DNA from: Halalkalibacter krulwichiae
GTDB lineage: Bacteria; Bacillota; Bacilli; Bacillales; Bacillaceae_D
Length of the DNA: 64,000 nucleotides
Assembly (NCBI RefSeq): GCF_002109385.1
Contig: NZ_CP020814.1
Location: 684,001 to 748,000, forward strand
Reading direction: 5' to 3'
A program made the translations under genes and the position numbers. A model generated the notes under the pieces. The model saw only the letters and a list, made by a program, of their open reading frames with translations, ran no database searches and was not told where the DNA came from. How positions within the stretch are numbered: the first letter of the stretch is position 1; each line of letters opens with the position of its first letter. Below are positions 14,822-22,780 of the stretch, piece by piece.

Positions 14822-17182
14822 ATGGGGAAAACAAAACACACTGGACCTATTAAATTGCCTAGCACACCAGCTCCTAAACATTGGGTAAGTAAGGTTCCGT
14901 TTGGACTTGGAAAAGTGAAGCCGAAACATATTAGAGAAACTATGAAAGTGGTTTGGAATAATAAAGATAATCTAAACTATGCAAAAAATATTATTACAAA
15001 GGGTGTTTGTGATGGATGTGCGCTTGGGGTAGCAGGTCTGTATGATCAAACTCTTGCAGGACCCCATGTCTGTACGACACGCTTAAATGTGTTACGTTTA
15101 AATACAATGCCAGCGATGAAAGAAGAAATTGTTCATGCTGATATTGATGAACTTCGTAAATATACAAGTGCAGAGCTACGGGAGCTAGGCCGTGTTCCAT
15201 ATCCATTGATTCGTAGACCAGGAGAGCGAAGATTCTCTCGAATTGAATGGGATGATGCGATGGAAATGATCGCGAATAAAATGAAGAAGTTAGATCCTAA
15301 AAACTACGGATTCTTTTTAACTTCACGTGGGATTACGAATGAATCTTATTATGTTGCAGCGAAAGTTGCTCGTTTTCTTGGAACTAATAATATTGATAAT
15401 GCTTCTCGTATTTGTCACTCTCCATCTAAAACTGCGCTGAAACGTTCTGTTGGAATTGGAGCATCAAGCTGTAACTATAAAGATTGGATTGGTTCGGATG
15501 TCATCGTATTCTGGGGCTCTGTAGCGGCTAATAACCAACCGGTATCAACGAAATACATGTACGCAGCTAAACGTAAAGGAACAAAAATTATCTGTATTAA
15601 CCCTTACCGTGAGCCTGCAATGGAAAACTACTGGATTCCATCTGTAGGGGAATCAGCCTTGTTTGGAACGAAACTAGCTGATGATTTCTACCAAGTTAAT
15701 ATTGGTGGAGATATTGCTTTCATGCATGGAATTATGAAGCACTGGTTCGAAATGGAAGAAACCAAACCAGGATCTGCTGTTGATCATCAATTTGTAAAAG
15801 AGCACGTTAATGGCTATGAGGAGTTAAAAGCAAAAGTACAGGAGCAGTCTTGGGATGACATTGTTCAATCTGCGGGAGTATCAAAAGAGAGAATCGGTGA
15901 ATTAGCAGAGTTATTAGCGAATAGCAAATCAGGTGTATTTGTATGGTCGTTAGGGTTAACGATGCATACATTCGCGTCAGATAATATTTCACAAGTGGCC
16001 AATCTTGCATTACTACGTGGATTTTTAGGTCGTGAACACTGTGGTGTGATGCCGATCCGTGGACATTCAAGTGTTCAAGGAAGTGGAGAAATGGGGGCTG
16101 ATCCATTTGTATTACCTGGTGGAGACTTTGAACCTAACAACATTGAGCGCATGGAGAAGCTATGGAACTTTAACATTCCTAAATGGCAAGGAGATGTACT
16201 AGGAGTTTCTCTTGAAAACTGCTTATTACCGGATGATCATGAACGTAAAATTAAGATGTATTATTTATCAGGTGGTAACTTCTTAGAAACAATGCCAGAT
16301 CCACAATTTGTAGAGAAGGCATTATCAGAACTCGATATTCGCGTTCATCAAGATATTATTTTCAATACTTCGACACTGGTAGATGCAAAGGAAGCTGTAA
16401 TTGTTCTACCTGCTAAAACGAGGTATGAACAAGACGGGGGCGGAACGTCTACTTCAACTGAGCGAATGGTATATTTCTCACCGAAGATCGAAGGGAATAA
16501 ACAAATTGTTGAAGAAGCACGATCAGAATGGCAAATCTATATTGATCTTGCCAAACGTGTCAAGCCTGAAGAAGCTCATTTAGTAGAATTTAAAGATGGT
16601 CAAGCGATTCGTGACGAGATTGCTCTAGCCAATCCAAATTATGATGGAATTCAACACTTGAAGAAACAAGGAGATGTTTTCCAGTGGGGTGGAGCATGGC
16701 TCTGTGAAGATGGTATTTGTCCAACGCCAGACGGCAAAGGGAACTTAATTCCTGTTGATATTCCTGATTTAAATAAAGTGGCTGGAGATTTCTACGTCAC
16801 AACAAGACGTGGCAAGCAATTCAACTCGATGGTATATAGTGAGCATGACCCATTTAATGAAGCGGACCGTTATGATGTTTTAATGAATGCAGAAGATGCC
16901 AAAGATTTGAGCATTACAGAACGTGAATTAGTTGTAGTTTATAACCAACATGGTGTATTCACTGGTAAAGCTAAATTTGTCGATATTGCAAGAGGAAACT
17001 TAGAGGTTCATTTCCCAGAAGGAAACTTTTTGCTTCCAAAAGGTGTTTATGAGAAACTCGCTAAGATTCCTAGCTATAACGTTGCGGTAAAAGTAGAAAA
17101 GGCTGAACGATTTAATGCACGTAAAGATACTCAGTATTTAGAGAAACGTATTGAAGATTTAGAGATGTCAGCTGAAGGTTAA
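14822..17182 (+). CDS. FdhF/YdeP-family molybdopterin oxidoreductase (formate dehydrogenase-like)
   Basis: A 786-residue Mo-bis-MGD enzyme of the DMSO-reductase superfamily. The N-terminus has GVCDGCALGVAGLYD with closely spaced Cys, then RPGERRFSRIEWDDAMEMIA, the cofactor-binding DNASRICHSPS, GSDVIVFWGSVAANNQP and INPYREP, a mid region GVMPIRGHSSVQGSGEMG, and the C-terminal molydopterin dinucleotide-binding domain from about residue 650 (FYVTTRRGKQFNSM). It lacks the N-terminal ferredoxin-like domains of large Bacillus formate dehydrogenases and no electron-transfer subunit is adjacent. The formate call rests on the neighbouring fdhD, OFA transporter and MGD genes. ATG 14822 follows AAGGAGTGA. 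Confidence 0.87.
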   Translation: MGKTKHTGPIKLPSTPAPKHWVSKVPFGLGKVKPKHIRETMKVVWNNKDNLNYAKNIITKGVCDGCALGVAGLYDQTLAGPHVCTTRLNVLRLNTMPAMKEEIVHADIDELRKYTSAELRELGRVPYPLIRRPGERRFSRIEWDDAMEMIANKMKKLDPKNYGFFLTSRGITNESYYVAAKVARFLGTNNIDNASRICHSPSKTALKRSVGIGASSCNYKDWIGSDVIVFWGSVAANNQPVSTKYMYAAKRKGTKIICINPYREPAMENYWIPSVGESALFGTKLADDFYQVNIGGDIAFMHGIMKHWFEMEETKPGSAVDHQFVKEHVNGYEELKAKVQEQSWDDIVQSAGVSKERIGELAELLANSKSGVFVWSLGLTMHTFASDNISQVANLALLRGFLGREHCGVMPIRGHSSVQGSGEMGADPFVLPGGDFEPNNIERMEKLWNFNIPKWQGDVLGVSLENCLLPDDHERKIKMYYLSGGNFLETMPDPQFVEKALSELDIRVHQDIIFNTSTLVDAKEAVIVLPAKTRYEQDGGGTSTSTERMVYFSPKIEGNKQIVEEARSEWQIYIDLAKRVKPEEAHLVEFKDGQAIRDEIALANPNYDGIQHLKKQGDVFQWGGAWLCEDGICPTPDGKGNLIPVDIPDLNKVAGDFYVTTRRGKQFNSMVYSEHDPFNEADRYDVLMNAEDAKDLSITERELVVVYNQHGVFTGKAKFVDIARGNLEVHFPEGNFLLPKGVYEKLAKIPSYNVAVKVEKAERFNARKDTQYLEKRIEDLEMSAEG

Positions 17183-20484: not shown

Positions 20485-20504
20485 CATTGAATAGTAATAT
20501 AGAG

Positions 20505-20538
20505 AGAAGGTGACTGCTAGGCAGCCTCCTTCTTTTTA
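20505..20538 (+). terminator. Terminator after glpK
   Basis: AGAAGG and CTGC (20505-20517) pair with GCAG and CCTTCT (20521-20533) and are followed by T5. It lies at the 3' end of the convergent thioredoxin-like gene. Confidence 0.8.
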
Positions 20539-20856
20539 GTTATTTTCATAAATCCTCGTTATTTTCGACTTGAAGTCTTCTAAGTGTACAAATCTAGCTT
20601 CTCGCAAAACTTCTTTCCCGTTAACATGAAAAACTAAAACTGGTGCAGTAAATGCCATAAGGTAACCTGCAATCTCAGGAATCTTTTCACCATTAACTAG
20701 GAGAGATTGTATTCGCGGAAATTCCTTTAATACTTCCTCAACCTGAGGAAGGAGTGTGTGACATACTGTTCAATTGGGCAAATAGATGTAAATGAAACTT
20801 AATTCATTATTCTTTATAAACTCTTTAACTTCTTCAAGTGACTGAGCTTGCTTCAT
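20536..20856 (-). CDS. Thioredoxin-like protein with in-frame UGA at the first redox Cys (candidate selenoprotein)
   Basis: Read through one TGA (20772-20770, codon 29), the frame from ATG 20856 gives a 106-residue thioredoxin-fold protein. It starts MKQAQSLEEVKEFI, has a hydrophobic strand FIYIYLPN, then [TGA]TVCHTLLPQVEEVLKEF, the cis-Pro segment FTAPVLVFHVNGKEVLREARFVHLEDF and a normal end. Related Bacillus proteins carry PNC.VCH here, so the TGA replaces the N-terminal Cys of CxxC exactly, as Sec does in UxxC thioredoxin-like selenoproteins. No other stop or frame break is present. The alternative is a nonsense mutation in a Cys codon. It is divergent from glpD; the GGAAAGGG site is about 11 nt from the ATG. 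Confidence 0.7.
20733..20751 (-). promoter_or_regulatory. Candidate bacterial SECIS hairpin
   Basis: On the minus strand CTTCCTC, loop AGGTT, GAGGAAG form a perfect 7-bp hairpin. The loop begins 26 nt after the TGA, within the distance described for bacterial SECIS elements, and has G as its second base, as in the E. coli fdhF loop AGGUCU. Confidence 0.5.
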
Positions 20857-20973
20857 GAAGCGGCACACCCTTTCCTTTCTTATAAGTATACACTGTCTTT
20901 CTTCTTATAATCGTCTGTTGAAGATAAAATGAATTTACACAATATATCCCTTTATAAAAGCTTAACTATAAGT

Positions 20974-21104: not shown

Positions 21105-22780
21105 ATGATGGGGAATTTTTCAAGTGATAATCGTCAAGCGATTTTAGAAGATATGAGTGAAAAAACGTTAGACCTACTTGTTATCGGAGGTGGAATTACA
21201 GGTGCTGGAATTGCACTAGATGCAAAAGTGAGAGGGTTGGGTACGGGTTTGATTGAAATGCAAGACTTTGCTTCTGGGACATCGAGCCGTTCGACCAAAT
21301 TGGTTCATGGAGGATTACGATATTTAAAGCAGTTTGAGGTGAAGCTTGTAGCGGAAGTGGGCAAAGAACGAGCAATTGTTTATGAAAATGCACCACATGT
21401 AACGACGCCTGAGTGGATGTTACTGCCTTTAATTAAAGGTGGTACATTTGGCAAATTCACAACTTCAATAGGGTTGAAAGTGTATGATTATTTAGCAGGA
21501 GTAAGAAAGCATGAAAGAAGGAAAATGCTATCGAAGAAGACTGTCTTAAGTAAGGAGCCACTTATACGTAAAGAAGGTTTAAAGGGTGGTGGAATCTATG
21601 TAGAGTATCGAACCGATGATGCTCGATTGACGCTTGAGGTATTAAAAGAAGCTGTGAATCGGGGGCGAAAGCAGTCAATTATGCACAAGCAGTCGGCTTT
21701 ATATACCGGGATGGAAAAGTTGTGGCGGTTAAGGTAAAGGATGTTTTGTCTGGTACTGTTTATGAGATTTATGCAAAGAAAATTGTTAATGCTGCAGGAC
21801 CTTGGGTTGATACATTAAGAGAACAAGATGGCTCTAAAAAAGGAAAGTTTCTGCATTTAACAAAAGGTGTTCATTTAGTTGTTGATCAAAATCGTTTTCC
21901 TTTGAAGCAAGCGGTATACTTTGATACAGAAAAAGATGGACGCATGGTCTTTGCGATTCCTAGAGATGGGAAAACTTACGTAGGTACAACCGATACGTTT
22001 TATAAGGACGATCTTGTGAATCCTCGTATGACAAAAGAAGATCGAGATTACATCATTGCTGCTATTAACTATATGTTTCCTCAAGTGCAGTTAACAGCAG
22101 AAGATATCGAGTCTAGTTGGAGTGGGTTACGTCCTCTCATTCATGAGGAAGGGAAAAGTGCTTCGGAGATTTCAAGAAAAGATGAAATCTTCTTCTCAGA
22201 TAGTGGCTTAATTTCTATTGCCGGTGGAAAACTAACTGGTTACAGGAAAATGGCTGAAAGAATTGTTGATATTGTCGCAAAGCAGTTAGGCAACAATCAA
22301 CCTTGTACAACCGATTCAATTAAGTTGTCCGGAGGCGAAGTTGGTGGTTCTGTAAAGTATGAGTCTTTTGTAACGCGTAAGGCACTTGAGGGAGTAAAGT
22401 TAGGTCTTGAAAAACAAGAGGCAGAAAAAGTTATAAGACTTTACGGATCCAACATAGATTCTGTGTATCGATTCATAAGAGAAGACAAAGGAGAAGCAGA
22501 ACAATATCAGCTTCCACCTTTATTGTTAGCTCAGTTAAAGTATGGGATGGAGCATGAGATGGTGACAACGCCTAGTGACTTTTTTAATCGAAGAACATCA
22601 GCGATCTTTTTTAACATTGCTTGGGTATTGAAGTGGAAAGATGCTGTTATTCACTATATGGCTAATATGAAAAAATGGTCAAGTGAAGTAAAAAAGCGTC
22701 ATGAAAATAATTTAAATAATGAGCTTCAATGGGCTCAAAGTCCTTTAGAGGAAGAACGCCCTGAGAGTAGAGTCGGATAA
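21105..22780 (+). pseudogene. glpD: Glycerol-3-phosphate dehydrogenase, frame broken at a G run
   Basis: FAD-dependent, membrane-associated oxidation of glycerol 3-phosphate to dihydroxyacetone phosphate, feeding electrons to quinone. The first part (from ATG 21105 behind AGAGGAGAG) has the FAD fold [17 protein letters not shown] and [15 protein letters not shown]. The frame fails at GGGGG 21661-21665, and one extra G restores [15 protein letters not shown] and continues into IVNAAGPWVD, GTTDTFYKDD and the normal C-terminal domain. The repaired length is 558 residues, as in B. subtilis. All sequence on both sides is well conserved, so a missing base in the read or assembly is the simplest reading; a real mutation would abolish aerobic glycerol use. 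Confidence 0.9.

Follow-up and report, generated by a model that had tools for sequence, protein, structure and literature searches.

An in-frame UGA, very probably read as selenocysteine, in a thioredoxin-like gene of Halalkalibacter krulwichiae and its relatives among Bacilli

The locus and its product

The window analyzed here is a stretch of 64,000 nucleotides of the Halalkalibacter krulwichiae genome (contig NZ_CP020814.1, positions 684,001 to 748,000), and all window coordinates are counted from its first letter. A small thioredoxin-like gene lies on the minus strand, with glpK ending toward it and glpD starting away from it. The following features were assigned at the locus:

20536 to 20856, minus strand: thioredoxin-like selenoprotein gene, as predicted from its translation, Pfam PF00085, an alignment and an AlphaFold2 model with Cys in place of Sec
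20770 to 20772, minus strand: UGA codon, probably specifying selenocysteine, from its shared codon position in all 26 TGA genes read, the window's included
20733 to 20751, minus strand: bSECIS-like hairpin CUUCCUCA-GGU-UGAGGAAG, from inverted repeat I3, a fold of -10.4 kcal/mol, the pairing compared between 26 TGA genes and 26 Cys genes, and a model test
20857 to 20880, minus strand: leader with a purine-rich stretch GGAAAGGG, a possible ribosome-binding site 11 nt ahead of the ATG, found by eye
20500 to 20538, no strand assigned: inverted repeat I1, located where glpK and the thioredoxin-like gene converge (18-nt arms, 78% complementary, 3-nt gap), which at a guess could be a two-way terminator

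Read from position 20856 down to 20536, the frame extends from ATG to TAA with one internal TGA at codon 29, in the context PN-U-TVCH. Re-translation confirmed the claim of the first-pass annotation that a single in-frame TGA, at 20770-20772, occupies the place of the first Cys of a CxxC motif. The translated product has 106 residues with Sec at position 29, and its UxxC motif is U29-T-V-C32. With Cys substituted for Sec, the protein scored 24.6 bits against Pfam Thioredoxin (PF00085), barely above the cut-off of 23.5. An AlphaFold2 model of the same Cys version, built from 17 aligned sequences, reached a pLDDT of 95.2 and a pTM of 0.88, and in this model residue 29 immediately precedes a helix spanning residues 30-43. 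The active site of thioredoxins is located just ahead of such a helix. The best 50 PDB rows returned by Foldseek were titled as thioredoxins or as designs based on this fold, with TM scores (query) of 0.79-0.91, and Pro72 was unchanged in all 17 rows of the alignment. The profile match, the fold, the UxxC/CxxC motif and the conserved Pro place the protein in the thioredoxin superfamily (PF00085). Its score of 26.6 bits against TIGR01068, the equivalog model of classical TrxA with a curated cut-off of 96.8, leaves it outside that group, and none of the NCBIfam selenoprotein models matched it. Another protein of the same genome matches PF00085 strongly, at 108.8 bits.

Orthologues with TGA or Cys at codon 29

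A total of 26 TGA genes (the window's included) and 26 other relatives were read. The TGA was always found at the same codon, where the other relatives carried TGC or TGT, and the in-frame UGA is hence aligned with the Cys of homologues. The 26 Cys genes are those that were fetched, a subset of the carriers; G095, in which the motif was not found, and G033 were left out of the reading. A survey of 397 genomes of the order identified the family in 175 at an E value of 1e-14, with exactly one TGA in at least 16, while a survey of 398 genomes of the class identified it in 163 at 1e-20 and added at least six further TGA genomes, all from one other family. The TGA carriers within the window's order belong to seven genera in five families, the window's own included, and those outside the order to three genera in one other family of the class. 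TGA orthologues sharing 58-60% identity were found in four named genomes, namely Cytobacillus oceanisediminis, Bacillus sp. J33, Pseudomonas sp. ISL-84 and Mesobacillus zeae. The gene in the Pseudomonas record (L025) is near-identical to the Cytobacillus oceanisediminis one, and the organism name of this record looks wrong.

A family tree of 46 rows shows three label changes, has 5 of 42 inner branches starred and is compatible with more than one number of Sec gains and losses; three metagenome proteins with W at the position in question were scored as Sec by inference. One orthologue, L088 (G349:C1:454476-454787), has a UxxG motif, that is, the UGA and hairpin are retained and the second Cys is replaced by Gly. 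Since this gene lacks the second Cys, a one-selenol mechanism may be possible.

A hairpin following the UGA

In the window gene the stem of the hairpin begins 18 nt after the UGA and the apical loop 26 nt after it. Comparison of the TGA genes yielded the consensus CUUCCUC-AGGUN-GAGGAAG, preceded by an 18-nt spacer past the UGA. All seven stem pairs are formed in 24 of the 26 TGA genes and six of the seven in the other two (G275 and L024, with synonymous-recoding p values of 0.21-0.22). None of the 26 Cys genes forms all seven pairs; six pairs were observed in one (G492) and five in two. The stem codons are almost invariant among the 26 TGA genes (CTT in 24, CCT in 25, GAG in 25 and CAG in 26), whereas those of the Cys genes are unconstrained; the valine codon in the loop and the leucine codon preceding the stem vary among the TGA genes. 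In G729 a two-sided change in the stem, from U-A to G-C, also replaces Glu by Ala in the protein. The six TGA genes read from the later class search possess the hairpin in every case. No selA match was obtained in the genome of the Cys gene with six of seven pairs, L119 (G492:C67:43822-44133), which is perhaps a former Sec gene that reverted to Cys.

When the folding energies were compared with those of synonymously recoded sequences, the mean z was -2.34 for 20 TGA genes versus 0.04 for 20 Cys genes, and the window gene alone gave a p value of 0.04. Against dinucleotide shuffles the energy of the window hairpin is ordinary (z of -0.49, with 55 of 200 shuffles as good). Because this hairpin is not unusually stable by itself, the case for a selenoprotein rests on the comparison of genes. 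The published bSECIS model (PMC13188914, legend of Fig. 2) describes a loop of 3-9 nt on a stem of 4-16 bp, a G in the first two loop positions, a distance of 16-37 nt from the UGA and a minimum free energy of at most -7.5. The window hairpin falls within all of these ranges, having an 8-bp stem, the loop GGU, a spacing of 26 nt and an energy of -9.4 as a stem-loop or -10.4 as folded. Hairpins within the model and with a perfect stem were found in 24 of the 26 TGA genes, the remaining two having one mismatch, and in none of the 26 Cys genes. A simplified form of the model is satisfied by 17 of the 2571 TGA triplets on both strands of the window, and 12 of these 17 hairpins, that of the thioredoxin-like gene included, are at least this stable. 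An Rfam search at the locus returned no SECIS match and just two matches in all, both far under their cut-offs. It is the 25 other genes, with TGA at the same codon and an accompanying SECIS-like hairpin, that lift the TGA beyond chance or a read error.

Selenocysteine genes and gene neighbourhood

The genome to which the window belongs measures 4.61 Mb in one contig and encodes a tRNA-Sec (57.7 bits, cut-off 47; ARAGORN also calls SeC(tca)), SelB (355 bits, cut-off 242) and SelD (412 bits, cut-off 125). The selD gene has an in-frame UGA (KAG-U-GCK) and a SECIS-like hairpin of its own, and selA is present in two frames, split by a frameshift in the assembly that we take for an assembly error. 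The glycerol antiterminator GlpP shares 90% identity over 88% with its counterpart in Halalkalibacter alkalisediminis, which agrees with a Halalkalibacter or a closely related organism as the source of the window. Among the genes inspected, the thioredoxin-like gene and selD were the ones found to contain UGA. The molybdopterin oxidoreductase family has five matches in the genome, and none of their matched frames contains a stop. One FdhF/YdeP family oxidoreductase is encoded within the window at 14822-17182, 3.4 kb from the selenoprotein gene (824 bits against 582), and has a Cys (RICHS) instead of Sec, at what is presumably the Sec position of other formate dehydrogenases.

Across the order, selA is present in 181 of 397 genomes. 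Every one of the 16 TGA carriers has it, compared with 65 of the 159 other carriers (Fisher p = 1.8e-6, a value that overstates independence because the genomes are related); "other carriers" denotes those in which TGA was not shown, part of which were read as Cys. The stop status is unlisted for 26 carrier genomes, as counted from the table, and dropping those left 55 of 133 other carriers with selA (p = 2.6e-6, with the same reservation). For selB, 21 of the 22 TGA genomes tested were positive. The search for tRNA-Sec covered the window's genome and the six TGA genomes of the class, and five of these six have selA, selB and tRNA-Sec. In the sixth, G464, none of the three was found, the tRNA search having scored 150 of 204 first-look candidates. 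The G464 copy, L110 (G464:C1:313887-314198), has TGA, an intact frame and the hairpin, and lies in a one-contig genome; our reading is that of a selenoprotein gene that outlived lost machinery or was gained without it.

In the nine g67 genomes that contain the gene, one end of selB lies 1.4-2.9 kb from the gene start on the same contig, and in the class genomes G714, G721 and G737 the gene is located approximately 19-23 kb from selA. None of 11 neighbours of the window copy was matched by tblastn (1e-8) in the regions flanking 24 other loci, and comparison of the gene neighbourhoods yielded no functional pointer. In 14 of the 24 loci (L089-L099 and L023-L025) the UGA gene has a divergently oriented methyltransferase gene immediately upstream. 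For the L090 methyltransferase the top match was Methyltransf_25; TehB scored 29.1 bits against 20.4, and no NCBIfam model exceeded its cut-off. Tellurite and selenite are substrates of TehB-type enzymes, and such an activity would make a selenium link of the adjoining methyltransferase possible.

Interpretation and alternative explanations

By computation, the gene has a UGA followed by a conserved hairpin, the genome has the Sec genes, and the product has a predicted thioredoxin fold. In our assessment the locus is very probably an intact selenoprotein gene of the thioredoxin superfamily, in which the UGA at codon 29 is read as Sec through SelB and the hairpin. Actual insertion of Sec at this codon is what we infer from the sequences: SelB, loaded with Sec-tRNA(Sec) and docked on the hairpin 19-37 nt past the UGA, would insert Sec instead of allowing termination. 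The resulting protein would fold like a thioredoxin, its active site, Sec29-x-x-Cys32, sitting where a helix begins. By analogy, drawing on the fold, the motif and general Sec chemistry, it may work like a UxxC thioredoxin-type oxidoreductase, in which the catalytic cycle would start with attack of the Sec selenolate on a disulfide or on a substrate of the peroxide type, continue with resolution of the intermediate by Cys32, and close with recycling of the enzyme through a small-thiol system or one resembling thioredoxin reductase; the substrate and electron donor proposed here are speculative. The first-pass annotation had offered a selenoprotein as one of two readings, and the outcome favors it: selA (frameshift-split), selB, selC and selD all turned up in the genome, the orthologues exchange TGA with TGC or TGT exactly at the codon 29 position, and the TGA orthologues are without any other stop in the matched frame, where many further stops would have pointed to a decaying gene.

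The other reading, that a Cys codon became a stop in a gene that is decaying and has so far escaped further damage, is in our view improbable. A single step leads from TGC or TGT to TGA, a TGA copy exists in G464, where Sec genes were not found, and selA is split in the window's own genome, all of which would accord with decay. Set against this, the TGA is common to 26 genes from six families, and constraint on the stem codons is seen among the TGA genes but is absent from their Cys counterparts. Purifying selection also acts past the TGA, as pN/pS there ranged from 0 to 0.16 across all 11 close pairs. Ahead of the UGA, two close pairs with few changes gave 0.43 and 0.63, and comparison of the window gene with L023 and L026 gave 0.22-0.42, values that are saturated.

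An erroneous base call hiding a true TGC or TGT is far less probable still. Besides selA, which lies elsewhere in the genome, the frames of glpD (two overlapping frames, at window positions 21105-21737 and 21722-22780) and of a molybdopterin gene are split, which suggests an unpolished assembly. The splits in glpD and selA are probably assembly frameshifts, though, and splits of this kind are frameshifts rather than substitutions; moreover, TGA stands at this codon in other genomes, and the window gene possesses the full hairpin, as its TGA relatives do and none of the 26 Cys relatives does.

It is very hard to credit that the UGA is a real stop followed by a shorter protein from a downstream start, which is how databases list several relatives. 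In the protein search, 13 of 19 matches (P0007-P0013 and P0015-P0020) were pieces of 65-76 residues starting past the TGA position, with Cytobacillus oceanisediminis, Mesobacillus and Bacillus massilinigeriensis among the source organisms, and L023-L025 have a TTG six codons past the UGA. Such a product would lack both Sec29 and Cys32, the part ahead of the UGA is conserved as well, and in the window gene ATG, GTG and TTG are all absent in frame from the first 37 codons past the UGA. Near-cognate readthrough of the UGA as Trp or Cys, to which the W at the Sec position of three database proteins (P0002, P0003 and P0006; probably the gene caller's choice of code) could be taken to point, is likewise highly implausible given the set of Sec genes, a hairpin within the bSECIS model, and the Cys rather than Trp codons of the 26 other relatives.

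Relation to known selenoproteins and significance

Sec-containing thioredoxins (Trx, PF00085, UxxC) are listed in the available portions of PMC13188914, PMC9312934 and PMC1794560, whose years include 2006, 2022 and 2026. As far as these portions show, they resemble the window protein in belonging to the Trx family, in having Sec as the first residue of the CxxC motif and in having a bSECIS downstream; the window protein differs in its U-T-V-C-H sequence and in scoring far below the TIGR01068 cut-off. No member from the genera in which we found the TGA gene is named among the Sec-Trx listed there. The table of the 2006 paper, in its accessible part, gives three selenoproteins for Bacillales without their names, so an earlier sighting of the subfamily among these three is possible. 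The literature listings searched, in which subscription papers were thinly represented, contained no report of the subfamily as a selenoprotein. On account of this result and of the lack of an NCBIfam selenoprotein match, we call the subfamily new, within the limits of those sources, inside the known Sec-Trx kind. The initial proposal of a new selenoprotein of a Bacillaceae lineage holds in part: it stands at the level of the subfamily, while the range is wider than that lineage and the UxxC thioredoxin kind is already known.

The Cys relatives from Bacillales, annotated as "thioredoxin family protein" or "thiol reductase thioredoxin", are members of the same subfamily; P0022 of Bacillus sp. 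FJAT-45037 and P0026 of Sutcliffiella cohnii share 50% and 49% identity with the window protein across 97% of its length. They differ in having Cys for Sec, and the Cys genes read are without the full hairpin. The nearest solved relative by sequence is PDB 4euy, an "Uncharacterized protein" (profile E of 6.2e-29) that is also a Cys form, with CxxC instead of a Sec motif; it was absent among the best 50 Foldseek rows, and its entry line gives no function.

A small thioredoxin-like protein, and not formate dehydrogenase, might be a main reason why some of these Bacilli keep the Sec system. We regard this as an unlikely though conceivable reading, suggested by the five molybdopterin matches without a stop, by the thioredoxin-like gene and selD as the UGA genes found, and by the nearby selB in the nine g67 genomes.

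The present findings add a probable selenoprotein subfamily across Bacilli, members of which are often listed in protein databases as shortened pieces that start past the UGA. Its UxxC and CxxC proteins constitute a natural and compact set with a very clear SECIS, which makes them well suited to a comparison of Sec and Cys chemistry, and G464, with a UGA and a hairpin in a genome where Sec genes were not found, offers a natural test of the loss of the machinery.
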